Shown one piece after another: positions 6,641 to 31,590 of a stretch of DNA of 64,000 nucleotides (positions within the stretch are counted from its first letter, which is position 1; each line of letters begins with the position of its first letter). Origin of the DNA: Timema cristinae (Eukaryota; Arthropoda; Insecta; Phasmatodea; Timematidae); assembly GCA_039000515.1 (NCBI GenBank), contig JBCFYV010011135.1, positions 28,283,491-28,347,490 of the forward strand, read 5' to 3'. Under the pieces are notes generated by a model, which ran no database searches, was not told where the DNA came from, and saw only the letters and a list, made by a program, of their open reading frames with translations. Made by a program: the position numbers and the translations under genes.

Positions 6641-6747
6641 TGTGATTGAGAGACAACTTTATATAAATTATATTTTAATCAAGTTTATGAATAACTGTGA
6701 GCTTCTTTCGAATGTTTGTCATCAAGTAGCTGTCACATGCATTAGTA

Positions 6748-8397
6748 ATGCAGTTCAACGAAATATACCCTGGAAACTATCCTTCTCTGAGTGCCGCAGT
6801 AGCGTTGGGCGATTTAAATGCGGTTCGAAAACTGGCAAAAGTACGGAGTAGGCTGGACGCCCATGATAATCGTGGAAGAATTCCTCTTCATGAGGCCGCG
6901 TTTCACAATCGGCCCGAATGTGTGGACTTACTCCTGAAACGTAAACAAAATGTTGTGAATGCACGCACGTTTGAAGGAGAAACGCCACTATTTCTCGCCT
7001 GCAAAGCTGGTAGCTGCCTTTGTTTGGTTAAATCGCTGATTGAGAATGGAGCCGATGTTAATTTGGCTAACAACGAAGAGGTTACACCACTTCATGTGTG
7101 CAAAGACTATGAATTGGCGTTTTGTTTGATACAGGCAGGTGCAAATGTTAACGCACAAGATTTCAACAATTCCACCAAACTACATCTTTTACTCGAGACT
7201 GAAGGTAACAATTCATCAAACTCTTTAATTGATTTGTTGCTTTCGAGTGGAGCGAATCCCTCTTTAGAAGATGAATGTGGCAGGACTTGTCTGTTTGTTG
7301 CTGCCCAGTTCGGTAATATCCACGCTCTGAAGAAGATCATCGAATTCTTCCCTAATATTGATGTAAATCAAAGGGCAAATGACGGAGCAACTGCACTTAT
7401 GTTGGCCGCCCAAGGTGGCCATCTTATGACTATCAGGATCCTATTGGAAATAGGAGCCGACCCCAGCTTGGTTGATCATGACGGTCTTAACACTATGTAC
7501 ATGGCCATTTTAAAAAATAACATTGTCGTGCTCAAGCTCTTAATTAAGTTGACCGGTGGCGAAGCTGTTTTTTTAAATGATGTGACATGGCAGCAATGGT
7601 CTTATATGAAATTTGCCATTAAATCGAATGCTTTCGAATCTGTCAAAGTCCTTGCAAAAATATGTCAGCGACACGCAATTTATCCTAGATTCCGTTTGGG
7701 CCCACATCCTGTCCCTCGTGTGTCTTCCATAACCAGTAACACATTGTTTGATTTCTACAATAAACCTTTTGAAAGTGCGGTCAGTTATATTTTCTGCGCC
7801 ATAGGCCAAGAGGATATTTTAAAGTATTTAGATTGCCTGCTAGAATGTGGTTTCCCTGTAAATGATCAAGACGAACAGTGCACTTCACCGATTGCTTCAC
7901 TTTTTAATGCTGGTTATCGGCGTGAGATTGTGTTGGCGTGCCTAGACAAACTAATCTCAAAAGGGATAGATTTAAATTCTTCAGAGTCAAACGGTTTTAT
8001 TCCAGATGCCCTTCTGTTGGCGTTGTTGCGTTACAACACCGACGTTATGTTGTTTATTTTTCAGCACACTGATTTTGTGACCCCTGATAATGTTTTGGAA
8101 TTGTATTATTCCCATAATATTGTTGCTGGGTACAATTATATTTCTTCTGATGTACTTAACTTTCTTATCACACTGGGTATTGAATTCCCTCTTCCTGCCA
8201 AAATTGGTTATGAAGACGAGGTGAAAACGAAAATAAGAAAAGAGCTTGCAACTGCTGGTGTAACAACACTCAAGAAATTGTGTAGAGCCAAACTACGAAA
8301 ATTATTCAAGTCTAATTGTGGTGGTTATAATATAGATGAAATAATGGCCGAATTAAAACTGCCACTTTCGATCCTTCAGTTTCTAAAGTATCAATAA
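6748..8397 (+). CDS. ASB3-like: Ankyrin-repeat and SOCS-box protein, ASB3-like, single exon
   Basis: Intact 549-residue ORF. About eight ankyrin repeats fill roughly residues 12-290. Typical helices are seen, such as RIPLHEAAFHN, ETPLFLACKAG and TALMLAAQGGH, with loops ending GADVNLA, GANVNA and GADPSL. The middle is a more divergent helical stretch. The last 45 residues form a SOCS box: LKKLCRAKLRKLF, then an LPLSILQFL end. The N-terminal DNRG-IPLHEAA-HN and TFEG blocks match vertebrate ASB3 best (518 aa). By family knowledge, ASB proteins bind Elongin B/C and Cullin-5 and present substrates for ubiquitination; the substrate here is unknown. The chosen ATG opens the frame just before the first ankyrin helix. 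There is no intron in the coding region, although vertebrate ASB3 is split. AATAAA at 8587 and 12 A at 8608-8619 follow the stop. Family is secure; the ASB3 assignment is likely but needs a tree. Confidence 0.93.
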   Translation: MQFNEIYPGNYPSLSAAVALGDLNAVRKLAKVRSRLDAHDNRGRIPLHEAAFHNRPECVDLLLKRKQNVVNARTFEGETPLFLACKAGSCLCLVKSLIENGADVNLANNEEVTPLHVCKDYELAFCLIQAGANVNAQDFNNSTKLHLLLETEGNNSSNSLIDLLLSSGANPSLEDECGRTCLFVAAQFGNIHALKKIIEFFPNIDVNQRANDGATALMLAAQGGHLMTIRILLEIGADPSLVDHDGLNTMYMAILKNNIVVLKLLIKLTGGEAVFLNDVTWQQWSYMKFAIKSNAFESVKVLAKICQRHAIYPRFRLGPHPVPRVSSITSNTLFDFYNKPFESAVSYIFCAIGQEDILKYLDCLLECGFPVNDQDEQCTSPIASLFNAGYRREIVLACLDKLISKGIDLNSSESNGFIPDALLLALLRYNTDVMLFIFQHTDFVTPDNVLELYYSHNIVAGYNYISSDVLNFLITLGIEFPLPAKIGYEDEVKTKIRKELATAGVTTLKKLCRAKLRKLFKSNCGGYNIDEIMAELKLPLSILQFLKYQ

Positions 8398-11520: not shown

Positions 11521-12680
11521 TGTGCTGATACACTCAATGTACATCAAATACCTCATATGAATGAAAATTATGTATATATGGTTTAGGTTGGGATACAATA
11601 AAGAAATAATTTTTAATAAACCTTTAATTAGAATATGTCAAAAAGAGTACATAATTTGTTTAAAGTAAACATGATTTTTTTTTTCTTATAAACTAATGCA
11701 AATAGAGAGAATATTTCATAACAAAGTCATAGTATCATCCACATGTGATAAGAAATTAATAGAAAGTCATAATTTAAAATAATGAAAAGCTTAGAAAGCT
11801 ATTTTAATTAACTGATGATAATGTACTATAAAGTTTCAATAAACTAAAAAATAAAAAATTACAACATAAGCAGTGTTATGATCTAAAAAAAAAAATGTTT
11901 TCTACACAAGTAATTGCTACACTTAAAAAATGTTTCACAGTTATGGAATGAAATATTATAATATAATTTTATGATAATTTTTTTTTTTCCTTAGTTGGTT
12001 TCCCACTTCACGCACACACACAAATGAGGAAACATTTACTTTAAATTCAACCTTCCTCCTCCTTAACCCAATATTATAAATATGCGGCTAATACATATAC
12101 ATATACAACAAAAAAACATATTTTTATAACAATTTTTACTTCAGCATTCCCCCCCCCCCCTCCCCGCATCATACACCGTTTTGAGTCTAGCATATATGTA
12201 CTAATTAGTAATGTGCTAGGGATGAATTTAGAGAAAATGTATCGACATTTGCGTGGAGCATGGGAAACCTTTTGGAAAAAACCAACAAAAAAACACACCA
12301 TCAATACGCACGCACAACCAGGATTCAAAATCCGATCTCTTCATTGACAATCAGTTTAGTCGATTGCAAGAATAGCACCTTGGACCACCAAAGAAGTCTT
12401 AATCCAATGATAGTTTGAAAGCGTACGAAATATTCTTCCCGCTTTTATCTCCTCTATTTCGTCAAATTACTCAAATCTTTTTATCAGTAAATATGTTTTC
12501 CAATAAAATCGATGGCCATGCCTCTGACTGTGTTACGTTAATACTAAAGTTATTCTTCAAACCGCTAGATTAAAACAAAATCAATCTCAAGAACCGACAC
12601 CAATGGATGACACTTTTTTTTTAATACCAGTCTTACACAACCATCCTAATAATAAGAATGATTGCACGGCCGTGAGCGAG
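11521..12680. other. AT-rich stretch with a degenerate SINE (about 12195-12400, -)
   Basis: The SINE relic shows GGATTCAAAATCCGATCTC and a reversed tRNA-like head near 12390. Poly-C at 12150. This region is downstream of UBC9 exon 5b and may hold its 3' UTR. Confidence 0.4.
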
Positions 12681-12747
12681 TTATTCTTGCATGGTCACAG
12701 TTCGGGCGTAAGCGCGTACCCTCTTCTCGTACTCGACAGGATTTTGA
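12681..12747 (-). CDS. UBE2I: UBC9 alternative last exon 5b
   Basis: 67 bp, the same length and phase as 5a: completes Cys138 as TGT, then [21 protein letters not shown] and TAA. Acceptor TTCTATTTTCAG, sharing its last 10 bases with 5a. Compared with 5a, of 22 codons 5 are identical, 9 differ synonymously and 8 change the residue. A relic would not keep that pattern. ATTAAA occurs downstream on the minus strand near 12620. Confidence 0.85.
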
Positions 12748-15700
12748 CTGAAAATAGAAACAAATAACATCCATTAAAAATTGCGCCAAACTGTAGCTTT
12801 TTTTTCCCCCCTTCTAAAAATGTGTGCATTAAAGTTACTTTAATCAGAGTGGAACTGTATAGAAATTAATCCAAGTTGGAAAATTAAAAACGGTATCTTA
12901 TATACAGGACGCAGACCACCCTCTAGCAAGGGAAAACATGATTTACAGACACCTTTATGAAAAAAAAATAAATATAGTAATCACTAATCAGATATATGAG
13001 TATATTATATGGATAAATTCATCTGACACCTTAATAATATTATGCGATATAAATTTCAACAAACTAACAAAAATGTATAACATAACTAGTGTAAGGATCA
13101 TAAATAAATAAATATATATACATACACACACACACAATTCATCATTATCATCTGTTTCCAGCCTGTGGCTGGGTGAGTTTAGTACTACATTTAAATTTTC
13201 ATAGGCAGAACCTTATCTGACAGCTAGAAAAGTTACTACAGTCCAATGTTCATAGGAAGAACCTTATCTGACAGCTAGAACAGTTACTACAGTCCAATGT
13301 TCATAGGAAGAACCTTATCTGACAGCTAGAAAAGTTACTACAGTCCAATGTTCATAGGAAGAACCTTATCTGACAGCTAGAAAAGTTACTACAGTCCAAT
13401 GTTCATAGGAATAACCTTATCTGACAGCCAGAAAAGTTACTACAGTCCAATGTTCATAGGAAGAAGCTTATCTGACAGCTAGAAAAGTTACTACAGTCCA
13501 ATGTTCACAGTAAGAACCTTATCTGACAGCTAGAAAAGTTACTACAGTCCAATGTTCATAGGAAGAACCTTATCTGACAGCTAGAAAAGTTACTACAGTT
13601 CAATGTTCAAAGGAAGAACCTTATCTGAGAGATATAAGTTACTACAGTCCAATGTTCATAGGAAGAACCTTATCTGAGAGTTAGAACAGTTACTACAGTC
13701 CAATGTTCATAGGAAGAACCTTATCTGACAGAAAATTTACTACAGTCCAATGTTCATAGAAACAATCTTATCTGACAGTTAAAAGGTTACCTAGATCTAT
13801 TTTCTAGCCATGTGATCTGCAGCTGTCACTTTTGATAGATATTATCAACAACATTAAATAACACTAATAATATAGTAATTATTATCAATGTTGACAGTAG
13901 AAAATATGTTTGTATTTTCTAAATGATTCCTCCATTTCAAATTCTCACCATATCTGGAGACGTGACTTATATTAATCAACTTTTAATTTCCTTTGATATG
14001 TGTATCCTTGCCAACCTTCAGCTATGTTCTCGTTAATGTATGGATGTTGTCACGTTTATATTTGACCATAGTGTTCCAGGGTGTCCAGCCAAACTATATT
14101 TCAAAATTCACAGAGCCAATTTCCAACTTTTCCAGTCACTATATTATAAACATTATTGTATTAAAATCGCAACTTAGTGTAGTATTTTTAGACACACACA
14201 CATTTTGAAACGGTAGCACTCGATGAAGAGGTTAAATGATGTCAGCCTAAAGCAATGGGCTGTCGGGTCATGTGATCTAAGTTAGATTTCAGTCAGATTA
14301 TATCTACACATTAAAAGATCACCTTACACGTGCTAGTGAACTAATGACTCAACTTTGGCTAAAGACACGCAACTGAGGGATGGAAGTTGGGATGAAACTC
14401 CCATGTTGACCTGCATAATTCAAGATGGACAACTGTACTAAAATAAATTCACAGCGAGTATTAACTGGAAGAAAAACTGTTATTTTGACAGTTATTGTAA
14501 ATGAAAATGGCACTGGCATAATATTTTATTGAATATGTGAAAACTCCAGAAATTTGATCTAATTCCCTGATTTTTTCCTGACTAAGCAAATTACCTGACT
14601 TTTCCCTTTTTTCCAGGTTGTTGAAGACCCTGTTAATCCTATTATATACACAGACTGGCTTAAACATACTTTCTTGAAATTATCATCCTCAGCATCATTT
14701 AAATGGGTGACCTTGCGGTCTAGGGGTAAGGGGTCGGACTTCTGTGCTGGGGGGTCCGGGGTTCAATCCTCGGTCCCGGCACAGATTTATCTGATTACCA
14801 AACCCTTCCTTCACCTCTGACAAGACTTGTATTAATCACAACTTGTGAATGTGTGGGAATGCCAGGCCTCCACCGTGGTTCGGATTCCACGTTAAACTGT
14901 AGGTCCTCCATTTCATCTCACAATCACCCTACCATTACACATTAGCGTAAGTGCGTATAACCCGAACAGGTAGTAAGACGCGGTGCTAATAATAATTATT
15001 TCCAGCTTGTCAGCTCAATTTAGTAAAGCGCCTCTAGTCAACTCTTTCCTTCCACTATTCTTCCTCCTTTAATAGCTTTCATTATTTTCCTTTCAGTGGC
15101 ACACTTTCTGTTATCTTCTCCTCCTGTTTCTTTATAGGTCTCCCTTGTGCTCTTTTCCTTACAAACCTTCCTTATCTCAAACTCTCACTCTGGTATTCTC
15201 TCCTTTTACAGCCTCGTTAAATCAATCAAATCTCAGTTTTCAGTATGTGAAGCTTCGAAAATAAAGAATATCTGTTACCTACAAAATATCAAATTTTGGA
15301 AACTGTAATGCTTTAACAAAAAAAAAAATATAAAAACATTCCTAGCGAAAATACGCATTTTAAATTTATCATTCTATGCTGTTATATAAAGAATGGTTGA
15401 ATAAGTAAAACATTTACATTATTTGTTTTAAATTTGACATTTTAAAAATTTAACTGCATTGGGGTAATATTAATTACCCAAGCACCCTTGAAAATGATTT
15501 AGATTGTGAATGACAGGGAGATTTTAGTTCGATCCTAGTTGGGTATATTGAGGATGGTATTTTTTTTAAATAAACAATAATACTTAGCACCACATCTTAC
15601 TACCCATTCAGGTTAAGTACTGTAACGTGTTTTACTATTTACAAATTATATATATATATATATATATATTTACAAGAGTACAACCATTGGTACACATATA

Positions 15701-18700
15701 TATACGCGTACGATACTTGGTCACTGTGTCGACGTCTCTAGTATGACACGACCAGTCCCAAACGCACTCACAGGAAGACTACTCCGCTACCTGGCTATTT
15801 GCACCTGTCTCCCCCAACCCCTCTTTTCCACATTCCAGTTAGAGAGGTGGGTACGCTCACTGCTCTCGCAAAATGGTAATTAGAGTTATCAGTTACACTA
15901 CTAATAAAGCTAATGGGTTAGGAATTGGTAAGGTTGAATATAGAGGAAGTGAATCCACATTTGTGTGAAGGCAGAGTGGAAAAACCACCCACCTGAGCGA
16001 GATTCGAACCTCGATCTCCCCGTCCTCAGTAGTCTTAACTCAACACAAAACTAGCCCGTTAGCTAACTATGTCACCTAGGCGGGTTTTTCCAAAAAATAG
16101 TTCACTAAATCATCATGCAAATGCTGGTACACTTTTAAATTTAATTTACTCATCCTTAGCCCTAGCGTAATAAGTACCACAAGCATCTTACCCAAATGAG
16201 TGTAATATTTTTTCCCCCAAGTTTCGGCTTTAGTTACAACAGCCGTCATTAGGGTGTCATCTTTTTTATGGGAGGCTAAGTACATAAATGTTGATCATCA
16301 TACTTTAGTTGTAGACATTTATATTTTATAAGTATTTTTTTTTCTGTCATTTTGAATTTTGATGTAATAATTTCTCAGTTTGTGTCATTTTTGAGCCATT
16401 TTAAGGCATTTATGTTGAATAGGTATATTTTTTAAGTACTCTCGATATTTTATAAATCCATAAATGTTTTCAACACACATTGAGAAGATAATGAAGGCCT
16501 TAAACTTTGTATCCTCTTTGCTTGTTTAGTTGTAAAATACACATTCCTGGTGAGACTGCAACTAGACTGGAGAGGGTTGCGTTGGGAGGGGGTAGCTATT
16601 ACTTCTGAAGCAGATATTTGTAAACCAATATTATATTCAGTAGAATACAAGAGTTTAGTTGTAAAATACACATTCCTGGTGAGACTGCAACTAGACTGGA
16701 GAGGGTTGTGTTGGGAGGGGGTAGCTATTACTTCTGAAGCAGATATTTGTAAACCAATATTATATTCAGTAGAATACAAGAGTTTAGTTGTAAAATACAC
16801 ATTCCTGGTGAGACTGAAACTAGACTGGAGAGGGTTGTGTTGGGAGGGGGTAGCTATTACTTCTGAAGCAGATATTTGTAAATCAATATTATATTCAGTA
16901 GAAAACAAGAGTTTAGTTGTATAATACACACTTTTGAAATGGATTTTTCAAACATTTCATGAAAAAATTTTTTTTTGTGGAAATTCAGTGTTGCTATCGA
17001 CCAGTCACCAGACACATCACAAAGTGGTCAAAAAACCTTTTATTATGAAATTCCTTGACTTTTTTCAGATGATATTAAAAAAAAAATCTTGACTCACTTT
17101 TATTTACATTTTTATGTGCAGAATTAGTCAAGTATTTATATTCCCTGACCTTTCTCCATTTGTGCTATTTGAATCCACCCTGTATTAGTTTCGATTGGTT
17201 AAAACGGAATTACCAGTGAAGTCTATATCTCAACTCAGGGTTCTTACAGACATATAAAACATAAATTCAAGGACTTTTTAAGGACTAAAACTGTTATTTC
17301 TCGTAATGTCTTAAGCTAAGCACGCCAATAAAATAAAATTATAAACCATATCAAATTTTAAATAGATGGAAAACAACTTTTCATTAAATTTAATCAACAT
17401 GAAGGACTATAAAAATAGTAATTAAACTTTGTTGTCCCTTACTTCATTCTCCTTGATTTATTGGTTAGTGCAGTCATTCTAGATTCAGTATATATGGATA
17501 TAACAGGAAATTGAGTGCTAAGATGAAGGGGAGATGAGCTACTAGTTATCGGCAGGCAATTTAATGCAAAACTGTAACTTTTAAATACTAAAAGTGTTGA
17601 TAGGTAGTCAAATATCCTAATAGAATTATTACAAATGATAGTTTTAAAGCAACTTTAAAAAAAACAAGCGAATGCACATGAATTGAGATTTTTAAATATA
17701 GGAAATTAAAGAAAATAACATTGTATTTCATCAAGAGTATTCAATCCATTTGTCAGAGAGGTTAACACTGTTTACCCTTATAGAGATCCCACCCCCATGG
17801 GTGCAACTATCTCTGAGCTGATGACGCGATAACCAATTAAACAAGAGCAGCGGGGAGTAAAGTAAACAAGAGGCAACAGCTAACCTTGATCAAAGAGGAT
17901 GCGCTAGATATTTACCACCCGAGTGATTCTTAGATCACGGTCTTTACAACCACTCTTCAGAACCATTTCAAAAATAAATATTGTAACCTGGAAATTCTAT
18001 GACTTTTCCAGGCCTTGAACAGACACACATTAAATTCCAGGTCTTTCAAGGACCGTATGAACCTGTCAACTTCAAACTATTATTATTATATTATTATTAT
18101 TAGCACCTTGATTTTGCTTTGAAAAGAAAAAATGAGCTACGCACAACTCTCACAGATAAAACTGTTAACATTAGAAAAAAAAAATCATGGCATCCAGCTT
18201 TACCGACCGAGTGGCCTCTGTCATTAGCGATGGCAGCGCCGACATTCACGGATAGAGGGTGTCATGTGGCCGGCGCAATGATTCCTCCAGCCGTTAATCT
18301 CAGTTTTATAGATCATATCTGCTACTCATTCATTCAAATAGCTCCTCATTTCTCCTCATGAGCCAAGAGTTTGATCTCGTTCCAGACAAAACCCGCTTCG
18401 GAGAAGTGTAAGCACCAGGGATCGAACCCATGAAATCTGACCACTAGACCATTACTCCAATTTAATGAAATGAAATTTGCATTTGTCTTGACCAATTTTG
18501 GGAGGAGTCTTATCTAACTACACATCAAGAAAAGTCGCAATTTTCAATAGCAGAATGGGTGTGATGATGGTAGAAATGAGAGAAAATGTACTTGCGACAG
18601 TTTGTCTGTGTGTGTGGGGAGGGGAATCATCCCTCTCAATTCACCAGGCAGGGATTCAAACCCCGATCTATAAATCACCGGCAACTTCAATCTATTCCGA

Positions 18701-21700
18701 GAGTGACGTCTGAAGGATCCCTTCATAGTTAGAGGTATGAGATGCACTGCACACGTTTAGAAATCTTGCCTAGTTTAAAAAGTTGTTTGATAACTTTTAA
18801 AACATGCTTTTCAACAAAATGTAGGCGAAAATTATCAGTAGGTCTCTTACTGAATAAAATGTTTACTTATGAGATTAACGCAAAAGAAACCTAGATATAG
18901 CCTAGAGCTATCTCTATCTTATGATAGTGTCTTAACCAGGGAGTCAAACCTGAACCAGAACAGAAATTAAGTTATTTTTAAAGAAAAGGAACCCTAAAAA
19001 CACTATTCTGATGAATCATAACCGATAAAAATATCGGTTCAACTCCCTGGTCACAACAGAGCATTTTAAGATAATAGAGGATTATTTTTTTAAAAAAGGG
19101 TTGTATTAAGTTATTACACTTTAAAAAAAATCTTAACCTTTTAACTGGTCAGAACCTTAACCTAAATTTAAATAAAAACAAAATAAAAAATATCTAACCC
19201 TTTACTAAATATTCCAGAAATCCCAAATATCTGCAGCGCTTAGCTTTCCCATGCTCAAATGACCACTATTCGGGGTAGTTGTGATATGAAAACCATTTAA
19301 AGTTGTCATAAAACTATTTATTAATAAGATATGAAATGATTACAAACTGTGTATAAACACATTTAATTTAAGATACAAACAAACACAAAATCTACACAAA
19401 ATGGTATTTAACTGACATTTCAAAATCTTTTAAGATTTTAACATTAAAATATTTAAATTAACAATCAAGAAATTAAGTAACACATAAGTAAAAAAAAGAA
19501 AATATTCGCGGACAAATGCACAACTATAAATACTAAGGGTGTGCAAGCTGGCGTTTTTCACTTCGAGTCGAGTTTGAATAAAAGGTTTTCTCTCTCTCAG
19601 GAGTTAGAGTAATATAGATCAATATTTCTACTATAACTATTTCAATTTTAATTTCTGTAATAGATCCATTTAGTACAATTTTTTTTTTTCAGAATTAATT
19701 TTTTTTCATGAAGAAATTTATATCATACAAATTAAGATTTTAAAAAAAGACAGTTTGAAATATTTGGGGACTATATTTGCTATGAATTATTTCATTAAAA
19801 TTGAATAGAATTAAAATTAAACTCAACACAAACTCGAATTTTTATTTAGTACTCGCACCCCTCCTAATTAAATACACTACTTCAAACTAAAAAAAAAAAA
19901 AATTATATATATATATAAGTTTGTCAGCACTTCTCAAGAGAACACATTACAAAAGTTTTTGTCTTTTTTTTTATTAATCCGACACGACAACGGATCAGAG
20001 AGTTAACCCTCGGAAACAATAATGCTGAACGGTAAACACCTCCGTCTACTCCTGGGGAGACATGGCCCGTGCCTGAGCGCGGACTCTCTTGTCATACTCC
20101 AACCTGTTTTGGCTGAAAATAGATCGCCTCATTTTAGTCTCTTGGGGTGTTTTTTTTTTTGGGGGGGGGGGGGGGGTCATGTGTGTCAAAGAGTTTTGTT
20201 TCTACCATTAGTGAATAAAGTTTCAGTCTCTTAATTATAATAATATTTAGCACCACGTCTTACTACCCGTTCGGGTTATACGCTTTAAGTACTAATTACG
20301 CTAATGGATTAGGAATTTGAGAGGGTTGAATTAGAGGAAGTGAACCCGCATTTGCGTGGAGGGAGAGTGGAAAACCATTTAGGAAAAACCACCCCCGGTT
20401 CACCCGAACGAGATTCGAACCTCGATCTCCCCGTCCTCAGAAGTCGAGCTCAACACGACTAACGCGTTAGCCAACTACGCCACCGAGGCGGGTAAGTCTC
20501 TTAATTAAAAACTTATCTAAATATACTATCATTTAAGTAATTCTTCCTTCAATCATATTTCGTAAGGGTGTGCACATAATTATATTGTGATTAGAGACAT
20601 TTTTTTGAATCAATTGGCTAAATTCTAGAATCAAATACAAGTATTACAATTTTAGCTGTCAGAAAAGGTTGTTCCTATGAAAAGTGGACTGTAGTAATTT
20701 TTCTAGTTGTCAGAGAGAGAGTCCGTTGGATTTGAACTAACACCTTAAAATTGAATCCAAATGACTCAAAATATGAGATAAAATTGAAAATTCCAAGTAC
20801 TCGTATACCCTTTTACAACAAGTAAATAATATCAGAGAATGAAGGATGAGAAGAAACTAAACAAACTAAAAGAAAACTAAAGAATCTAGAAGAAAGTAAA
20901 ATTTTCTAATACCGAATAACCAACTACTAAAAGTTCATAAGACAACTTTGGATTTTTTTCTGAAGGCAGATAAGATAAAAAAAAGGGCTTCTTATGCATA
21001 CAATTCCCAAATATATTTTTGTAACTTTGACAAGTAATATGAACCAATTTCACTTGTCGAAATTTACAAAAAAAATATTTTTAGACAGTTGAATTAGAAA
21101 CCAGGCCGTAGAGTCCAATTCATGGAGTCGGATGTAAAAAAATGTATCGAAACCAACTTAGAATAAAAACTTATAGTACTATAACAATATATGGTAACTA
21201 CAGTAGCTCCATGGCTTCTTTGGTGCTGACTGACAGCTCACAGCTGACTTCTGACAGTCAACATTTAGGTGTATACCTAAAGTTTGACTGTCAGAAGTGA
21301 CAGCTGATAAACACATGTTTTTGCAGATCACATGGTTCGGCGTAGGGATATATAATTTGATCTGGTAACTTTTTAGAGTTGTGAGCTGTCAGTCAGCACC
21401 AAAGAAGCCATGGGGCTATTGTATATCATTTTAATTGTATACTTTGTTTCTATTCCTTAGGACCAATATTTATAATTGTGATTAACAATTTTTTTTTTTA
21501 ATATTTACTCACACAATGCCAAAGAAGCTTCCAATGAAGTAATCTTAGTTTGAGGTATTTTACTGGACAGTGGTAAAAAAAGAGAAGTTAAATTCGAAGG
21601 CTTGGCGTATCGCTTTCACAGCCCTGCCTTTTACTGACTTTTTTTATTTTAAACATCACAAAACAAAGTTATCCTAAATTAACCACAACAAACACATGCA

Positions 21701-24700
21701 CAAACAAAACAAGAATAAAAAATTATTTCAAGCAGAGTAGGAGTGATCTCGTATATAATTAGTCTTGTTATATTTGTCTAACACCGCAAACGAGTGGAAA
21801 AAATTACAGTTGAATCAAGGAATCAATACGATCCGTGATATTCAAATTTCAAGAGTTTTTTTTTTTAAACAACTTGTCTTTATACCTGTTCAAGTTATAC
21901 ACTTAGATGTACTAATTACATTAATGTCTTAGAGAGGAGGTAGATTAAATTGTGAATAGTTGTACCGACATTTTAAAACCCTTAGCGTAATTAACACATA
22001 AGTGTGTAACCCAAATGGCTAAGTAAAACTTAGTGCTTAAAAAAATAAAAGGGAGTAAGCGAGCAGGCATTTTTTTCCTACAATTTGACTTTGAATGTAA
22101 ACAAGGTTTTTTATTGAGCTTGAGTAGCATAAAGCAATATTTGTAAAATAAATATTAAAAAAAAACACATTATAATCACATTATCTTGAGGTTCCAAATA
22201 AATTCAATATAATTGTAATCTGTTTTAACTAAACAAAGGAAAATATGAGGTACTTTATTTGATATGAAAATTAACCCTTAAAATTTAATAAAATCAATTA
22301 AAATAGGACTTTTTGAGGAAAAGATACAAAATTCAGTTAAATTCGAGCAGATACTAACTCAACTCAAACTTTGGTACTCGCACAACCTTACAAATAACAA
22401 CCCCCCCCCCTCCCCCCCTCTCTTGTTTTATATCCTTCTGTGTTAACTTTTCACTAGATCCTGTTTGACATCCTAGCTAAGTCGGTAGGTAGCGTTCTCC
22501 GAGTTAAGGGTCCCACGGTCGATTCTTGGCATGACCGTAAAATTAATCAATGGCGAGAAATGGGTGGCGAGAAATGGGTGGCGAGAAATGGTTTCCTCTT
22601 TCACAGTGAATAATTAACGTCCTGGGTGCTGGGTGTTGTGTCTGTACTAGATTTAATAATATTAGCACCGCATCTAACTACCCGTTCGGGTTATACGCTT
22701 TAAGTAATAATTACGCTAATGGATTAGGAATTGAGAAGGTCAAATTAGAGGAAGTGAACCCACATTTGCGTGGAGGGAGAGTGGAAAACCATTTAGGAAA
22801 AACGACCTGACCGAGATTCGAAGCTCGATCTCCCCGTCCTCGGCAGTCGAGCTCAACACGACTAGCGCGTTAGCCAACTACGCCACCGAGGCGGGTATTG
22901 TGTTCTAGATTTAAATAAGTTTATATGTCAAGTGTTGATATAATCAGTTTTGAACCAGTGTGCCGAGGACAGGGAGATCGAGGTTCGAACCTCGGTCGGG
23001 TAAACTTTCCCCCCCCCCTCCCTAAATGGTTTTCCACTCGCCCTCCACGAGAATCTGTGTTCACTTCCTCTAATTCAACCTTCCAAATTCCTAATCCATT
23101 AGAGTAATTAGTACTTAAGCGTGTAACCCTAATGAGTAGTAAGAACGCGATGCTAAATAATAATAATAAATGATCGGTTGGTTAAGAAAATGCACGTTAA
23201 AAGAAAAAATAAATCTTATAAATGAGCAATAAATGGAGCATTAAACTCAATCGTGTCGCGTAACAGGAGCCATGAACTAGTTGAATGAATGAATATTTAA
23301 TAGAAGTGTTCAGGCGCGATACACAATGGAACGTATACACAGCAAATGCAAGAGCATTCTACAACGACGGTTAAACTATTTTACAGAAAATATTTCATCA
23401 TGACAAATCAAGAAAGTGCTTAAGAGAAATCTAGAAACCACTCGACCTAACAATCGCCAGAAGAGTGAAAAATTATATGACTTAAAAGTACACCATCGAT
23501 GATTGCCCATTTGAGATCCAACACGACAATTATATCTCCCAAAAAAAAAAAGTTATATTTGGAAAAAAAGAACAAAAAAAAAGTGGATAGAAAACATTTA
23601 AAAGGAACAAACACAAAATGGAATGGCTTTTACAATGAAAAGAAGAACACAATTCACACTGGACCATGAGGTAATGGCCGCCCCTTGAAGAAAATCGATT
23701 ATTACCGCCTAATCACCCTGAACTAGGTTTCATTCGATCGAAACTCATCAGGAGGGAGTGTGAAACGCACAAACATGACTTCCTACAAGAGGGAAACCAA
23801 AAGAACACAAAAGAAAAAGGAGATTTGTAAAGAATGACAGGACACTTAGATACAGTAGCCCCGTGGCTTATTTGGTGCTGACTGACAGCTGACTTCTGAC
23901 AGTCAACATTTAGGTATATACCTAAATGTTGACTGTCAGAAGTGACAGCTGCTAAACACATGTTTTTGCAGATCATATGGTTCGGCGTAGGGATGCATAA
24001 TTTGGTCTGGTAACTTTTCAAAGCTGTCAGCACCAAAGAAGCCATAGGGCTACTGTAGGAACAAGTAAAAAGGACTAATATAAGGACAATACAGAAAATG
24101 AAATTATATGTTTCTCTATACCTTTTCTATATCTTCTTCCAAATATAATACAACTACCTCATAAAGCGAAAAGAGGCTTTCCTTAAAGATTATATAAAGG
24201 TTAATAAAAGAGTGTTTGGATTTATGTGAATCATCAATCTAGGGGTGCTGTTATTTAACTAGAAGCATAGCAGAATAAAATATTTGAATTATTCCTGAAT
24301 CTCAATCAGAAGTTAGAACATATTATTAAATCGTTTTATGATGAGGGATTTTTTTTTTTACTGTGTAACTTTTAAAGACTAAACATTATTCGGATTTTTC
24401 TTTCTTCAAAATTGTCTAAAATATTTTATTCTAATTGTTGAATCAAGATATTATTCCTTGCTTTGATGGCCACATGGTACAAGGCACTAATTTCGCAATC
24501 TACTCGACTGCCAAAGACAAGGAGATCGGGGTTCGAGACCAATCGGTTGCGCTGAGGGTGGTTTTTATTAAAAGGTTTTCCACTCTCCCTCCACGCCGAG
24601 TGTGGGTGCACTTCTTGGAGATTAAAAAAACGATAACACATTAGTTTAGTTAGTGAATATGCGTATAACCCAAACAGGTAGTAAGACAAAGATATATATC

Positions 24701-25205
24701 TATATATATAAAATAAAATATTATTACAACATGCAATTTCCATCCAAATATTAATGTATAATTTACATAAAGGGCCATAATTGGACATACCCCCACCCAA
24801 TGAAGATGAAGCCAATACATTTTAGAAGCTGATCTGAAGTGTTTGATGCTATGCATGCCCCTTGCATCAAATTTAAGGTGCCTATTTTTGGGAAAATAGC
24901 AACACACTTATCGTTGAAAGACATTTTCGTTACCGACACCAGTTCCAAAAATCACAGCACCACCTGGTGTCTGTCTTGAAGATATTGCAGCGTATATTAG
25001 CTCGGTACCACCGACAACCAACTCGGATTCAAGAGTCGCGCAAATTATCTTTCCTCATTATAATGAATCATAGTATCTGGACCAAATATATTTTTAAATT
25101 TATCGACTTTCCCAAGAATTCCAGTGCCTATCCGTTACAGCCCAATCCCCTGACCTAAATTTCATTCTATCGGAAATAGTCAGGAGCAAGTGTTAATCGA
25201 GACAT

Positions 25206-25237
<32 letters not shown>

Positions 25238-28200
25238 AATAAATAATCACAATTTAAAGTAAAAACACAACACATATTAACAAACACAATTCAAAGTTTT
25301 GATGTCACACGACACCTTCCTTGGAAAGTAGCTGTCTAAACAGGAAGTTGGATTTTAATTAGTCATATTGAAGGTTTTTTTATCACCGTATCTTACCTGT
25401 TCGTGTTATACACATGTATGATATATACTCTGATAGGGTAGGGATGAGGAAGGAAGCGTTTAAGAAGTAATATACCAGCATTATCGATGAAGGCGAATGG
25501 GAAACTCGTTTAGGGAAACCACCCTAATTAGACCCGACTGAGATTCCAACCCCGATCTCCCTGTCTTCAGCAGTCGAGCTCAACACGAGAGTGACGCCTT
25601 AGACCGACTGGCCAATGAAGCAGCTAACACTGAAATTATTATTATTAGCACTGCGTCTTACTACCCGTTTGGGTTATACGCACTTACGCTAATGTGTAAT
25701 GGTAGGATGATTGTGAGATGAAATGGAGGACCTACAGTTTAACGTGGGATCCGAACCACGGTGGAGGCCTGGCATTCCCCACATTCACAAGTTGTGATTA
25801 ATACACGTATTGTCAGAGGTGAAGGAAGGGTTTGGAAATCAAATAAATTGTGCCGGGACCGAGGATTGAACCCCGGACCCCCGACACAGAAGTCCAACAC
25901 CTTACCCCTAGACCACCAGGTCACCCGATACTGGAATTAACCCCAATATCACTACTACTACTTCTTCTTCTTGAAGAAGATGCCATGGAAACATTGAAAT
26001 ACTAAATCTGGTTTAAAAATCTCATTTCGGTGGTCGCGTGGTCTAACACGCTTCTCTCGCAGTAGACTAGACCACCATTGACAAGAATGAGGTTTGAATC
26101 TCAGTCGGGGTGGTTTTTTTTCAAAATGTTTTTCCACGCAAATGTGGCTAAACTTCCTATAAATGTAACCTACATAATCCCTAAAACCATTAATGTATAG
26201 CCCAAAAAGGGTAGTAAGACGTGATGCTAGAAAAATAATAATAGAAAGTGCCTATTATTATGTGTTCAAGAGTCTTTTTTTTTACTTTGATTTGTGCTCA
26301 ATTTTTTTCTAAAATTCTATTATTTAATTACATATTGTAATAACCCTGCCCTAGATTGGGATGTTTGATTAAAAGTAACGTAACAGTGTTGAAACGAAGC
26401 AACTGAAATAACGAGTTTGGGCTACTTTACTTGTTGTGATTAGTTAGAAAACATTAGGAAAGAATGCTGACAACTCATAACAACTTGTCCCCGTTGCAAT
26501 CGGGCTGATTTGCAGTATAAAGGGTTATGTTTAAGAAATATCGAGGCTTACACAATAAAATCTACTCAAGAGGGGCCCCCACTGCCCGTTTTCAGGGCCA
26601 TGTGGATTATAGCATCGGTTACTTGTGCTAGAGGGCAACCGTCATACCCAGAGTACTGGGTTCGAATCTGTAAGTGGTGTCAGTGGTCAAGTATTCCTCG
26701 CTAAGCCAGTTTTATCACAAGCTCCTAACGTCAAAGTCATTATATCTTTTTGTAACGACTTTCTAACACCACATTTTTCAAGTGACTCCAAAAACAACAG
26801 ACTTTATGATTTCGAGCCCCACACATCTATTTTGCTATCGTCCTTATCCTTTCTCTCAAGCTATCCTGACAGATTTAGATCCGCAGGAAGGGGTGGGGGG
26901 TACAATATTATCTTATATTGATAGTCTCGAAGCTTCACACAGACTTTGCGAAAATAAAAGCCATGCAATTTGTAAGGAAAGCTGTTAAAATAGCATTCAA
27001 TAAAGAAGACAGTAAAAAGTGTTCTAAGAAGATATCAGCTTCCTTCCACCCTCATTCCCCCACCTCCCCAAAAAAGAAAGATTTATATTGGTTAGGAAAT
27101 CAAAGTATTCTAACCAGTAGATGGTGTAAGCCTCGGCTTGGGCGGGGTCCTTTATGTTGGGTTCGTTCAGTAGGTCCTGGATGCCGAGCAGAATCTGTTT
27201 GATGGTGATGGCCGGACGCCAGTCCTTCTCTTCGTCCAACAGCGACAGGCAGACGGTTCCTACAAAAACAGCGGACAAAGTAAAACTGCGCACAAATCAT
27301 AAGAAAGTTGGAACAAAAATTATTTCTCATATTCAAAGTTATTTTGAAGCAAACTTAAAAATTAGGGATGTAATCCTCGAATCCTTAAGGATATTTATGA
27401 AAATATCAGATTAAAGTTTAGAAAAAAAACAAAAACTAGTTTTTCTTTCTCCGAATAATTTGAATGGGAATTGGGTTAGGGATGAGGATAGTGGAATTGA
27501 GAGGAAATGTACCTGCATTTGTTTGTAGAGTGGGAAGCCATTTAGGAAAAACCACCCCCAGTTCACCCAACCGAGATTCGCACCTCAATCTCCCTGTCCT
27601 CGGTAGTCTGGCTCTACACGAAACTAGTGTGTTAGCCAACTACGCCATCGAGGCTGTGCATATATGCGGTGTTATTTACATTTTTCGGTGGCTAAGATCC
27701 ATTTGCAAGATAAAACTAAATAATGGGTTCTGAATTTCATCAATTTCCGGTTATCGACAGTGCTCTGGTCTTCCATCTGTTGAATAAGCATGGTACACCT
27801 GTCTTATGAGAAGAAAGGGGTAGCCTCCACACTAGCCCCTAGTCTGGAGATTGAAATGTGACCTTCCGAATACGAGGCAGGTTCAATAAACTCGACACCA
27901 AATGACCTTGAGCCTGTACAAACCTGAAGGGTAGACGTTTGGATGGAAGAGGGGTGGCTCGAACTTGCACTTTGGAGGGCTGGAGGGGTAGTCCTCCTTG
28001 AAGATCATTCGGAGCTTATACAAGCCGCCTTCCCATGGAGTCTGAGGGGTAAACAACCATTTTAGATTGGCGTAACATTAAACAACCACTATAAAGTGGG
28101 CGTAACATTAAACAACCACTGTAGAGTGGGCGTAACATTAAACAACCACTGTAGAGTGGTCGTAACATTAAACAACCAACTGTAAGTGGCCATGACAACC

Positions 28201-31040
28201 AGGTAGACGTGGATAACATTAACATCACTTGTAGAGTGGGCGGTAGCCTAAACAACCACTTAAAGTGGGCGTAGACATTAAACAACCACTATAAATGGGC
28301 GTAACATTAAACAACCACTATAAAGTGGGCGTAACATTAAACAACCACTGTAGAGTGGGCGTAACATTAAACAACCACTGTAGAGTGGGCGTAACATTAA
28401 ACAACCACTGTAGAGTGGGCGTAACATTAAACAACCACTGTAGAGTGGGCGTAACATTAAACAACCATGTAAGTGGCGTAACATTAAACAACACTTAAGT
28501 GGCTAACACTTAAACAACCATTAAGTGGGCGTACATTAAACAACCACTTAAGTGGGCGTAACATTAAACAACCACTATAAAGTGGGCGTAACATTAAACA
28601 ACCACTGTAGAGTGGGCGTAACATTAAACAACCACTGTAGAGTGGGCGTAACATTAAACAACCATTGTAGAGTGGGCGTAGCATTAAACAACCAACATTA
28701 GCGTTCCCTTCCATTACTGAGCTCTACGGAAAGGTTTATTTTGATTATTATAATCGTGGCTATACAGATCTTTAACAAAATGTAAATCTATCCCAAGATT
28801 CAATGGCTATCTTGAGGAGTTTACATTATAGGAATAGTTACTCACCGATTTTTTGCCGGGAATAGCGCATTCCCAGTTCATGAGATTTAAACCTCCATCG
28901 GAAGTTTTCATTGGGCGAGCCACAAATCCCTTAAAAATAAAAATATAAACGTAAAATATACATTAGCTTACAATTATTTAAAAGTACTGTACACACAATA
29001 ATATTTAAATCGATAGGCTATTTCTTATTTAAGTAAAAATATTTTTAATAATATTTAGCACCGCGTCTTACTACCCATTCGGGTTATACGCTTTAAGTAC
29101 TAATTACGCTAATGGATTAGGAATTTGGAAGGTTGAATTAGAGGAAGTGAACCTGCATTTGCGTGGAGGGAGAGTGGAAAACCAGTTAGGAAAAACCACC
29201 CCCAGTTCACCCGACCGAGATTCGAACCTCGATTTCCCCGTCCTCGGCGGTCGAGCTCAACATGACAACGCGCGTTAGCCAACTACACCACCGAGGCGGG
29301 TAAGTAAAAATTAAAGGTGTGATAAATTCATAAGTCCTTTTCAAATATTCTATTGTATACCTTAATTATATTATGAATGGACAGCTGGTGCACTTTTATA
29401 AAACAAAAGTCATATTTTTTCTTTAAGTCAACAGTGATAACATTTTATTAAATTATCAGTATTGCTTTTATTTTTAATTTAGCACCGCGTCTTACCCGCC
29501 TCTCTGGCGTAGTTGGCTAACGTGCTAGTCGTGTTGAGCCCGACTGCTGAGGACGGGATAATCGAGGTTCGAATCTCGGTCGGGTGAACTGGGGGGGTTT
29601 TTCCTAAATGGTTTTCCACTCTCCCTCCCGCAAATGCGGGTTCACTTCCTCTAATTCAACCTTCACAATTCCTAATCCATTAGGGTGATTAGTACTTAAA
29701 GCGTATAACCCGAACGGGTAGTAAGATGTGGTGCTAAATAATAATAATAATTAAAAAAAGCACCGTGTCTTACTCTCAGGTTGGGTTATACGCTTTAAGT
29801 ACTAATTACGCTAAGTGGGCTAAGAATAAGAAAGGTTGAATTTAGAGGGAATTTACCTTGCATTTACGCAGAAAGAGAGAGCAGGAAACCAATTAGGGAA
29901 AACCGCCTTCAGTACATTCAACCGGGTTTCGAACCATGATCTCGTCATCGGTAGTATAGTATACTGCAATCTTGAGTGACACCTTAGGCCATGCGGCCAC
30001 CGAAGCAGGTTACTTTTACCAGTGATAATACTAAATAACGTTAACCACATTCTGTGACTTTTTCAAGACCCATGTATTTAATATTGACGAAAGGGTGGGG
30101 GAAGGTAGGGAGGAAGAAAAAAATGTTCAACCGCATCCTTGACACTTCTTGGTGTTAATGTGATTTGATTTTTCATCTTTTGAGGCTAGTGATAATTATT
30201 GACATTTTTTAATAAACCTAAAAAGTGTCTAAAATGTTTATACAATTTTTAATGGATTTGATTCATAAACTTGACATAGTAAAATATTCAACAAAGAGTT
30301 GATTATAGTAAGCCTAAAATAAATTATTCGATTCAGATCCAAACCTACTTTTAAATCAATTTTTTTTTAAACCACAAGATTCGATTTGAGTTGGCCTAAG
30401 TTAGCCAATATTCGAATTTGATTCGAAATTGAAAATAATGGTTTCGCAGAGGCTTAATATTTTTTTACAGGTAAACCATTTCATAAAAATGTAAGCTAAT
30501 TTTGTTTGAGCAAAGTACTGTATATTATATACATACCAACTCCGGTTATAAAATAAAAACTTAACATATTATAACAATATTTATAGTCCTACTTTTATAT
30601 TATTTAGGATCACAATTTTAAATTTGGAATTGAATATAAAATATCTGTGAAGTAATTGTATTATATTTGGAAGAAGGTAAAGGAAAGGAGGATGGAAAAA
30701 TTGGAATTGACAAATTTATTTAGAATTTAGATTCACAATGTCAACGAAGCTTCCCATGAAGTAATCTGTATCGGAGCATTTTACTGTGACCAAGACAATA
30801 AATTTGTTATTACTAATTAATATACTTTAGGCCACTTCTGAAGGGAGTTGGGCAATAGAAAAGTATAGGAACCGGATTGACCACGACCACGACTATGTTA
30901 ATAGATATCACAAGCATCACCGACGTCATAGATGATTTATACCGTAGAAAGACAAAAGTGTGTGAACAACTTACGAAAGGGTGGTCTCGCCTCCAGGCTC
31001 TTCGTTCTTCTGCAAGACGAGTGGTCGAAATGCCAGACAT
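12681..31040 (-). CDS. UBE2I: SUMO-conjugating enzyme UBC9 (UBE2I), with two alternative last exons
   Basis: Coding exons, in transcript order: 31040-30975, 28929-28846, 28041-27924, 27259-27115, then either 20112-20046 (5a) or 12747-12681 (5b). All junctions are GT-AG and in phase, and each form encodes 159 residues (human 158). UBC9 takes SUMO from the E1 as a thioester and passes it to target lysines, mostly in the nucleus. Key residues fall at the human numbers: HPN loop with N85 (FHPNVYPSG), catalytic C93 (GTVCLSLL), D127 and Y134 (DPAQAEAY). The N-terminus [26 protein letters not shown] exon carries the basic helix that binds SUMO and E1. The gene is divergent from RNPS1. The paired last exons are the oddity: they change residues 139-159 only. 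Confidence is very high for identity and splicing of exons 1-5a, and high that 5b is a usable exon. Confidence 0.95.
13198..13785. repeat. 51-bp minisatellite, about 11 copies (intron of UBC9 exon-5b form)
   Basis: Unit begins AGGAAGAACCTTATCTGACA and ends CAGTCCAATGTTCAT. Later copies carry small deletions. It sits 450 bp upstream (transcript sense) of UBC9 exon 5b. Confidence 0.93.
14215..14660. repeat. Dispersed repeat, family also at 42690-43095
   Basis: Shared blocks include ATGACTCAACTTTG, AAAGACA, GAGGGxTGGAA, CATGTTGAC and AATGTGAAAA followed by AATTGATC-like sequence. Class unknown. Confidence 0.5.
14706..15000 (+). repeat. SINE type B, copy 1
   Basis: tRNA-like head GGTGACCTTGCGGTCTAGGG with B box GGTTCAATCC. 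Body AGATTTATCTGATTACCAAA; tail CGTATAACCCGAACAGGTAG, then AATAAT. Confidence 0.88.
15001..15240 (-). repeat. Pyrimidine-rich sequence, possibly LINE 3' region
   Basis: CT-rich text (CTCCCTTGTGCTCTTTTCC) resembles the LINE-associated stretch at 37.8-38.5 kb. Weak. Confidence 0.3.
15585..16087 (-). repeat. SINE type A, split by an LTR-like insertion
   Basis: Tail (CACATCTTACTACCCATTCA) at 15590, middle from about 15898, tRNA head ending CACCTAGGCGGGTT at 16087. Interrupted by 15621-15897. Confidence 0.85.
15621..15897. mobile_element. Short solo-LTR-like insertion inside a SINE
   Basis: 277 bp starting TGTAACG and ending AGTTACA (inverted TGTAAC/GTTACA), flanked by GTAC and CTAC. It precisely interrupts the SINE consensus AAGTACTAATTACGC. 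Contains a (TA)n run. Confidence 0.55.
16524..16924. repeat. 129-bp tandem repeat, about 3.1 copies
   Basis: Unit starts GTTTAGTTGTAAAATACACA and contains CTGGAGAGGGTTG and GGGGGTAGCTATTACTTC. The period is a multiple of three, which produces long ORFs on both strands that are not genes. Confidence 0.93.
17236..18065. mobile_element. TIR element with CAGGTTC-type ends
   Basis: Left end CAGGGTTCTTACAGAC; right end, reversed, CAGGTTCATACGGTCC. Flanked by the direct repeat TCAACT (17230-17235, 18066-18071). Both ends carry CAAGGAC motifs. No transposase. Confidence 0.55.
18190..18465 (-). repeat. SINE with a different tRNA head (type E)
   Basis: Reversed head TGGTCTAGTGGTCAGATTTC with B box GGTTCGATCCC near 18440-18420. 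Confidence 0.55.
18500..18720 (-). repeat. Degenerate SINE type A relative
   Basis: GAGAAAATGTACTTGCGACA and GGATTCAAACCCCGATCTAT match the SINE A body and B box with many changes. Confidence 0.45.
18730..20040. other. AT-rich gene-free stretch (UBC9 3' side of exon 5a)
   Basis: No ORF or element recognised. AATAAA for exon 5a on the minus strand at 19973-19968. Confidence 0.4.
20046..20112 (-). CDS. UBE2I: UBC9 alternative last exon 5a
   Basis: 67 bp: completes Cys138 as TGC, then 21 codons ([21 protein letters not shown]) and TAG. The acceptor is CTATTTTCAG. It is the closer match to the usual UBC9 end ([17 protein letters not shown]). An AATAAA on the minus strand lies about 75 bp past the stop (19973-19968). 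Confidence 0.92.
20239..20494 (-). repeat. SINE type A copy
   Basis: Full-length: tail TAGCACCACGTCTTACTACC at left, B box TCGAACCTCGATCTCC, head end CCACCGAGGCGGGT at right. Confidence 0.9.
20495..21198. other. Gene-free; one inverted half-unit of the 51-bp minisatellite at 20650-20715
   Basis: 20655-20700 reads GAAAAGGTTGTTCCTATGAA, then GGACTGTAGTAA, the reverse of the 13.2-kb unit. The rest is AT-rich. Confidence 0.5.
21201..21421. mobile_element. TA-flanked MITE, copy 1
   Basis: Long TIR CAGTAGCTCCATGGCTTCTT, then TGGTGCTGACTGACAGC, and its inverse; TA on both sides. A nested palindrome (CTTCTGACAGTCAA and reverse) is inside. Copies at 23853 and 41235. Confidence 0.88.
21424..22460. 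other. AT-rich gene-free stretch
   Basis: Possible degenerate SINE tail near 21885-22030 (TACCTGTTCAAGTTATACAC). Poly-C at 22401. Nothing coding. Confidence 0.4.
22464..22660 (+). repeat. SINE type C copy with an internal triplication
   Basis: Head TAGCTAAGTCGGTAGGTAGC, body CATGACCGTAAAATTAAT. GGCGAGAAATGG is present three times in tandem; end GGGTGTTGTGTCTGTACTAG. Confidence 0.7.
22655..22896 (-). repeat. SINE type A copy
   Basis: TAGCACCGCATCTAACTACC at left, head end CCACCGAGGCGGGT at right. Confidence 0.9.
22957..23170 (+). repeat. SINE type A copy, 5' truncated
   Basis: Begins within the anticodon-arm region (GTGCCGAGGACAGGGAGATC), has B box GGTTCGAACCTCGG, and ends GCTAAATAATAATAA. 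Confidence 0.88.
23548..24195. mobile_element. Decayed transposon fragment with a DDE-type remnant, interrupted by a MITE
   Basis: The plus frame at 23702 reads [20 protein letters not shown], resembling the PPYHPELNPIE block of DDE transposases. Flanking pieces match 388-590 and 45290-45475. The TA-flanked MITE at 23853-24055 is inserted in it. Confidence 0.5.
23853..24055. mobile_element. TA-flanked MITE, copy 2
   Basis: CAGTAGCCCCGTGGC and inverse GCCATAGGGCTACTG, TA at 23851-23852 and 24056-24057. Contains GGTTCGGCGTAGGGATGCAT, shared with the other copies. Confidence 0.9.
24505..24695 (+). repeat. Degenerate SINE type A copy
   Basis: GGAGATCGGGGTTCGAGACC, TTTTCCACTCTCCCTCCACG and tail CGTATAACCCAAACAGGTAG. 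Confidence 0.65.
25130..25200 (+). pseudogene. Short DDE-transposase-like remnant
   Basis: CCCCTGACCTAAATTTCATT reads as PDLNFI, an SPDLNPIE-like block. Too short to classify. Followed by a (TA)n run at 25201-25238. Confidence 0.3.
25384..25622 (-). repeat. Degenerate SINE type A copy
   Basis: TATCTTACCTGTTCGTGTTA at left; GATTCCAACCCCGATCTCCC as B box; head end GCCAATGAAGCAGCT. Confidence 0.7.
25637..25928 (-). repeat. SINE type B, copy 2
   Basis: AGCACTGCGTCTTACTACCC at left, reversed B-box region GAGGATTGAACCCCGG and head ACCACCAGGTCACC at right. Confidence 0.9.
26024..26250 (+). repeat. SINE type A2 copy (GGTCGCGTGGTCTAA head)
   Basis: Head GGTGGTCGCGTGGTCTAACA with CTCTCGCAGTAGACTAGACC, B box GGTTTGAATCTCAG, tail GTAGTAAGACGTGATGCTA. 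Confidence 0.8.
26600..26720 (+). repeat. tRNA-like fragment, possible SINE head
   Basis: GCTAGAGGGCAACCGTC with CTGGGTTCGAATCTG. Not a foldable tRNA gene by eye. Confidence 0.3.
27115..27259 (-). CDS. UBE2I: UBC9 coding exon 4 (catalytic cysteine)
   Basis: 145 bp from Gly90 to the first two bases of Cys138. Contains TVCLSLL with catalytic C93, [17 protein letters not shown] and [11 protein letters not shown]. Acceptor TTTTTGTAG, donor GTTAGA. The split TG|N codon lets either last exon complete Cys138 (TGC or TGT). Confidence 0.95.
27440..27655 (-). repeat. SINE type A copy in UBC9 intron 4
   Basis: Contains AACCACCCCCAGTTCACCCA, GATTCGCACCTCAATCTCCC and head end CGCCATCGAGGCTG. Its tail is truncated at the left. 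Note that it lies in intron 3 (27260-27923) of the UBC9 transcript. Confidence 0.8.
27924..28041 (-). CDS. UBE2I: UBC9 coding exon 3
   Basis: 118 bp encoding [19 protein letters not shown] through FHPNVYPS plus the first base of Gly90. It holds the HPN motif (N85). Acceptor CCCTCAG, donor GTTTGT. Confidence 0.95.
28050..28700. repeat. 30-bp minisatellite, about 20 copies, filling UBC9 intron 2
   Basis: Unit (plus) GTGGGCGTAACATTAAACAA, then CCACTGTAGA. Intron 2 spans 28042-28845, so the array occupies about 80% of it and begins within 10 bp of the exon-3 acceptor. On the transcript strand each unit ends CCACTCTACAG, which looks like a 3' splice site. Confidence 0.93.
28846..28929 (-). CDS. 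UBE2I: UBC9 coding exon 2
   Basis: 84 bp, 28 codons, including [19 protein letters not shown]. Acceptor TTTTTAAG, donor GTGAGT. The last codon is Ser where human UBC9 has Gly51. Confidence 0.95.
29044..29300 (-). repeat. SINE type A copy in UBC9 intron 1
   Basis: TTTAGCACCGCGTCTTACTA at left, head end CACCGAGGCGGGTA at right; full-length. Confidence 0.9.
29476..29752 (+). repeat. SINE type A copy preceded by a reversed tail stub
   Basis: A reversed stub TTTAGCACCGCGTCTTAC (29477-29494) abuts the head CCCGCCTCTCTGGCGTAGTT of a plus copy, which ends GTAAGATGTGGTGCTAAATA. Confidence 0.88.
29753..30012 (-). repeat. SINE type A copy, tail-to-tail with the previous one
   Basis: AGCACCGTGTCTTACTCTCA at left; A2-like head end GGCCACCGAAGCAGG at right. 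Confidence 0.82.
30013..30800. other. AT-rich part of UBC9 intron 1
   Basis: No element or ORF recognised. Confidence 0.4.
30975..31040 (-). CDS. UBE2I: UBC9 coding exon 1
   Basis: 66 bp, 22 codons from ATG ([18 protein letters not shown], then DHPF), ending in donor GTAAGT. Fourteen bases upstream of the ATG is a good acceptor (pyrimidine-rich, TTTCATAG, AG at 31056-31055), so a non-coding first exon probably lies further upstream. Confidence 0.95.
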
Positions 31041-31336
31041 GGTGAGCTCAACGCCTATGAAACAGACAGAATTTGACATTGACTCAAGAGAGAGGGGGAT
31101 TTTGGCCCTTTATAAGCGACTTCTCCCTGAAAATTTTGCCGGCCAATTGGCATTGTGAAGTAGCAGGTTGACAATGTAGAAGTAGGCCTATCCTACTAGG
31201 GTTGTTATAATTTTACCCACCACAAAAAAATAAAAAATATAAAAAATCGGTTATTAAAACTTATTGTATTGAATACAAAGCAATAATTTTATCGTCTGAA
31301 TGAATTTTTTGAAAATGGTTAGCCTATTTTCCATTT

Positions 31337-31590
31337 AATAATTTTAACACCGCGTCTTACTACCCGTTCGGGTTATAAGCTTTAAGTACTAATTACGTTA
31401 ATGGCTTTAGGAATTGGGAAGGTTGAATTAGAGGAAGTGAACCCGCATTGTGTGGAGAAAGAGTGGAAAACCATTTAGGAAAAACCACCCCCAGTTCACC
31501 CGACCGAGATTCGAACCTCGATCTCCCCGTCCTCAGCAGTCGAGCTCAACACGACAAGCGTGTTAGCCAACTACGCCACAGAGGTGGGTC
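31337..31590 (-). repeat. SINE type A copy upstream of UBC9
   Basis: ACACCGCGTCTTACTACCCG at left, GATTCGAACCTCGATCTCCC, head end CACAGAGGTGGGT at right. Confidence 0.9.

Follow-up and report, generated by a model that had tools for sequence, protein, structure and literature searches.

The stretch of DNA considered here, referred to throughout as the window, comprises 64,000 nucleotides of Timema cristinae (contig JBCFYV010011135.1, positions 28,283,491 to 28,347,490), and its minus strand contains the complete coding sequence of the SUMO E2 enzyme UBC9. Exons 1 to 4, joined at GT/AG sites, encode residues 1-137 and supply two bases of codon 138, and this codon can be completed by either of two exons, the proximal E5a and the distal E5b, which are the subject of this analysis. 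The features on which the argument depends are the following.

30975..31040, minus strand: UBC9 coding exon 1, residues 1-22
28846..28929, minus strand: UBC9 exon 2, residues 23-50
27924..28041, minus strand: UBC9 exon 3, part of the spliced open reading frame
27115..27259, minus strand: UBC9 exon 4, with Cys93 in TVCLS; ends in TG, followed by gttaga, within codon 138
20046..20112, minus strand: E5a, proximal last exon, encoding the ordinary insect tail (tail A), the same as in T. californicum protein P0019
19970..19975, minus strand: AATAAA, a hexamer resembling a poly(A) signal, 70 nucleotides past the E5a stop
12681..12747, minus strand: E5b, distal last exon, encoding a diverged tail (tail B)
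12620..12625, minus strand: ATTAAA, a hexamer resembling a poly(A) signal, 55 nucleotides past the E5b stop

Judged by its sequence, the encoded protein is a UBC9, having a full UBC fold sequence and lying nearer to UBC9 than to other E2s. Its best matches in the PDB are UBC9 chains, human ones included, at 312-314 bits, and among the best 60 of 311 PDB matches the highest-scoring chain without a SUMO E2 name reaches 117 bits, once 4l83 is set aside (a Ube2i2 protein at 275 bits that is UBE2I by name). Cys93, encoded in exon 4, is the catalytic residue. An AG acceptor stands immediately 5' of coding exon 1 (tttcatag, then GCGTTGAGCTCACC-ATG), so that an additional 5' exon further upstream is likely.

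The introns of the gene have features of their own. In intron 2 there is a 30-base-pair minisatellite (window 28042-28694, minus strand) of 20 copies of TGGTTGTTTA, with 13 of 19 spacings exactly 30 and CTCTACAG present in 8 of the 20 units. The array runs directly into exon 3, its last, shortened unit TGGTTGTTTACCCCTCAG serving as the exon 3 acceptor, and it gives the impression of an acceptor region that has been amplified into potential decoy splice sites. Several copies of a dispersed repeat family, spread over window 20352-31589 and found in both orientations in UBC9 introns, carry a tRNA-like box sequence (GGCGTAGTTGGCTAAC ... GGTTCGAATCTCGGTCGGGTGAA); the family is likely to be a short interspersed nuclear element.

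Two last exons complete the same codon

Intron 4 extends for 7,002 bases up to E5a, and E5b lies a further 7,298 bases (about 7.3 kilobases) past E5a. Each exon is 67 base pairs long and is preceded by ...tctattttcag, each completes Cys138, as TGC or TGT, and each then encodes 21 residues with the stop in the same place, such that both spliced open reading frames measure 480 nucleotides and encode 159 residues. On the same strand, in the same phase and of equal length, E5a and E5b form a homologous pair, with 41 of 67 bases identical (61%) and 26 base differences. Over codons 138-159 (n = 22), 5 are identical, 9 synonymous and 8 replaced, and the stop codons, TAG and TAA, make a tenth synonymous pair. 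A preliminary description of this stretch had given the same coordinates, 21 residues plus stop, intact acceptors and codon tally, all of which hold on recount, and the exon translations bear out its statement that the isoforms would differ only after residue 138, including R141P and Q151Y.

The resemblance of the two exons is readily detected, since a tblastn search of the window with the isoform A protein recovers E5b at E = 1.7e-4, the next, unrelated match standing at E = 1.8, and the score of the E5a-E5b alignment was matched by 0 of 500 dinucleotide shuffles. In the upstream flanks the alignment is confined to tctattttcag, with a score that 24 of 500 shuffles attain; the weak similarity of the flanks leaves the extent of the original duplication unreadable. 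A second UBC9 gene in the window was considered as a candidate source of E5b and rejected: with either isoform as query, the tblastn matches listed contained no UBC9 exons beyond those given above and no second set of exons 1-4, and thus E5b appears to have no gene of its own in the window. About 0.4 kilobases upstream of E5b there is a 51-base-pair tandem array (window 13132-13692).

The two acceptors differ in quality. Pyrimidines number 9 per 17 positions before E5a and 14 before E5b (14, 11 and 13 before exons 2, 3 and 4), which makes the E5a tract the poorest of the five acceptors scored and that of E5b one of the two best. This is suggestive only, yet competition is conceivable between a proximal last exon with a weak acceptor and a distal one with a strong acceptor. 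A hexamer resembling a poly(A) signal follows each stop, although hexamers of this sort abound in AT-rich DNA. Some 40 bases upstream of the weak acceptor of E5a, a stretch of 16 C runs into one of 11 A (window 20150-20176, minus strand); its length may be variable, with a possible effect on splicing.

Tails A and B compared with those of relatives

Comparison with annotated proteins indicates which tail is the ordinary one. The T. californicum protein P0019 ends in exactly tail A and the tail of the cricket Gryllus protein P0017 is close to it, so E5a can be regarded as encoding the ordinary tail and E5b as the diverged copy. The T. cristinae protein P0122 matches the window exactly over residues 1-137, then continues into intron 4 and later diverges, with a piece past the read-through that matches window 26667-26572 at 75%; because it runs into the intron, this model contains neither last exon. 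The T. genevievae protein P0126 ends in CYLLL, a short and unrelated end. Apart from P0122 and P0126, no Timema protein appeared among 120 listed of 3,358 matches and 120 listed of 197 matches; P0019 was among the matches to isoform B residues 110-159 that are described below. The N-terminal part of UBC9 also varies in Timema, reading MSGIAITRL/KNSDGS in T. genevievae P0126, MSGIAVNRL in T. californicum P0019 and another form in the window, which is that of P0122; at the sites involved (window 31014-31040 and 28891-28908, minus strand) this is a large amount of variation within a single genus, given how conserved the protein is.

A wider set of homologous tails was drawn from 237 proteins, of which 45 had no matching tail region and 27 lacked the motif Y[ED][KR][RK][VI] and were dropped (apparently read-through into introns, or ends that were mispredicted), leaving 165. 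They comprise 58 distinct sequences over residues 138-155, with residues 156 and 157 unscored, and the motif filter means that columns 144-148 are conserved by construction. Tail B retains Q139, N140, E143, Y144, K146, R147, V148, R149, A150, A152 and R153. As far as this sample shows, some of its replacements belong to kinds tolerated in other UBC9 proteins and some have no precedent. To the former belong R141P (P in 2 of 58 distinct tails), L142V (V in 8) and D145E (E in 50); the latter, at residues 151, 154 and 155, are taken up below, and residues 156 and 157 differ as well.

For a relative's protein, P0004, the AlphaFold model (mean pLDDT, the predicted local distance difference test score, of 81.6, with ten-residue blocks of the last helix at 89 and 78; numbering offset +4) places the final helix at UBC9 residues 141-155. 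It follows that exon 5 encodes the last helix together with the tip and the two residues that precede the helix, and that residue 141 is the first of the helix, a position at which proline is usually tolerated. On an ideal helix Y144, V148, Q151 and M155 face the same way (0, 40, 340 and 20 degrees), and two of these four are altered in tail B in opposite size directions (Q151Y and M155V). The two changes may repack the helix on the core. Terms for residues 141 and 151 had 0 occurrences in the main texts of a paper on the RanBP2 complex and one on Pdr6 (PMC12246119, PMC6548137).

Coding constraint on E5b

The distribution of the differences between the exons is that of coding sequence, with 7, 2 and 17 at codon positions 1, 2 and 3 (third positions 17 of 23, second positions 2 of 22; Fisher p = 1.3e-5). 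A pairwise codon model gave omega between 0.045 and 0.07, with synonymous change saturated, and rejected omega = 1 in 6 of 6 settings (p 2e-5 to 2e-4). As a low pairwise value could reflect constraint on E5a alone, the omega of the E5a branch was fixed at 0.01 or 0.05 in a branch model with equal branch times; omega for E5b was then 0.08-0.13, and neutrality was rejected in 12 of 12 settings (p 0.001-0.005). In a mutation simulation that began from E5a and imposed 26 random base changes on each of 200,000 copies, 20,776 were still open with the same stop, bearing a mean of 14.6 residue changes; just one of these open copies had 8 or fewer, and none reached the score of E5b against a family profile of the 58 distinct tails. 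These tests rest on 21 codons without outgroup DNA and average over the whole history of the exons. Taken together, the codon-position differences, the codon models and the simulation support the proposal of the preliminary description, that protein-coding constraint acted on both last exons after an old duplication.

Interpretation and alternatives

Both exons, their phase, splice sites and stops, the poly(A)-like signals nearby and the synonymous bias of their divergence can be read in the DNA. The explanation that we favour, and regard as probable, is that Timema UBC9 possesses a homologous pair of alternative last exons giving rise to a second SUMO E2 isoform. The last exon would have been duplicated long ago, E5a retaining the ancestral tail and E5b coming to differ at eight residues while purifying selection acted on it. 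Exon 4 would be spliced to E5a, with cleavage at the signal 70 nucleotides past its stop, or else the proximal exon would be skipped and exon 4 joined to E5b, with cleavage at that exon's own signal. The predicted products are two SUMO E2s of 159 residues that have residues 1-140, including the catalytic core, in common, their differences being confined to the C-terminal helix (141-155) and the tip. We infer that both E5a and E5b are transcribed, how the choice between them is made, and that helices A and B differ in packing or partner binding. A more specific proposal is offered tentatively, and is itself rather doubtful: in Timema, and perhaps in more stick insects or Polyneoptera, one UBC9 gene may provide two SUMO E2s through a swap of the last helix, in which the inner face of tail B is re-packed (Q151Y and M155V beside the kept Y144 and V148), altering the choice of E3, importin or substrate, for example in germline or sex-specific tissue.

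Several observations weigh against the favoured explanation, and some of those given here speak for another, in which E5b is a former alternative exon whose role was lost recently and which is now decaying, with R141P, Q151Y and the altered tip as early decay. Compared with tail A, tail B has more departures from the usual insect sequence. Position 151 is nearly invariant (Q in 55 of 58 distinct tails, Y in 0), and the T at residue 154 (A in tail A, ten residue types in the column) and the V at residue 155 (M in tail A) likewise occur in 0 of 58. That replacements favour the variable columns of the family has no more than weak support (p = 0.07). Of 534 matches to residues 110-159 of isoform B, 120 were listed, and inspection of all 120 tails found no tail B; nor is it in any of the three Timema models, which have tail A (P0019), intron read-through (P0122) and a short end (P0126); the protein database was, however, clustered at 90% identity and isoform B is about 95% identical to isoform A, and hence tail B could sit unseen within a cluster. 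The 3' untranslated regions are weakly alike, with a match around a poly(A) run whose score 37 of 500 shuffles reach, and a recent loss of E5b use would be compatible with a codon test averaged over history on 21 codons. Set against recent loss are the intact frame, stop and acceptor of E5b, the conserved positions from Q139 to R153 that it has kept, and the rejection of neutrality over the whole of its branch, and on balance we consider this explanation unlikely.

Less likely again is that E5b is spliced but rare or regulatory, a distal transcript form serving a different 3' untranslated region or a lower output of UBC9, with its altered tail merely tolerated. The poly(A)-like signal of each exon and the variability of positions 141, 142, 145 and 154 among homologues are in keeping with such a role, although protein-level constraint on tail B suggests that the B protein is in use. 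Names such as UBC9-A/-B and E2Ia/E2Ib suggest extra UBC9 genes in some animals, and E5b might accordingly be thought part of another gene copy, either a tandem duplicate that is incomplete or a second gene that has been rearranged. We hold this to be improbable, as E5b is on the same strand as exon 4 and in phase with it, and the tblastn matches listed include no other UBC9 exons, whether in the interval from E5a to E5b or in the rest of the 64 kilobases. Nothing was found in favour of a chance resemblance or an assembly artefact, which is the least credible of the explanations considered: a collapsed haplotype would show an identity far above 61%, the window contains no N, and the similarity of the exons is far above that of shuffles. 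The alternative-exon explanation makes a sharp prediction, namely two splice junctions and two stable, active proteins.

Other features of the window

Some features of the window concern other matters. An open frame of 555 residues (window 6730-8397, plus strand) encodes ankyrin repeats; from its first Met onward it matches Ank_2 at E = 1.2e-39. The open frame at 48872-49291 (minus strand) resembles a sirtuin (SIRT4-like) exon; the whole frame has no Pfam match. Two Rfam tRNA matches lie far from UBC9, close together on opposite strands (62916-62988, minus; 63066-63134, plus), with scores of 30.7 and 33.5 relative to a gathering score of 29, and are either true tRNA genes or repeat-derived.

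Comparison with known systems

No description of a UBC9 with alternative homologous last exons was found in the open-licence literature searched (titles and the starts of abstracts), in agreement with the preliminary description, which knew of no such pair. Among E2s, UBE2D3 is a precedent, for which a literature query returned nothing. SUMO conjugation is usually portrayed as passing through one E2, with little room for specialisation; a single E2 is also what a review of the pathway gives (PMC12687455). A constrained alternative helix in UBC9, if true, would mean that choice at the level of the E2 has evolved inside a single gene, and the tail pair would be a natural experiment on the role of the UBC9 C-terminal helix.

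Mechanisms of this kind are known, but UBC9 would be a surprising gene in which to meet one. Of 236 human tandem duplicated exon substitution events, in which homologous exons are mutually exclusive, 77 affect the C-terminus, and in tropomyosin genes three 3' exons in tandem provide homologous C-terminals (PMC9741552). As in these events, homologous duplicated exons of Timema UBC9 would exchange one segment of the protein; unlike the known cases, the gene encodes a SUMO E2 and use of the second exon is a prediction. Paralogous UBC9 genes (UBC9-A/-B, in fishes and others) constitute another route to more than one SUMO E2, by whole-gene copies as opposed to the exon pair inside one gene in Timema. 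With respect to UBC9, UBE2I or lesswright as generally known, the protein is the same, of 159 residues, with homologues that carry PF00179 and an isoform A that has the ordinary insect tail, and to this the Timema gene adds another last exon, in which the final helix has diverged.

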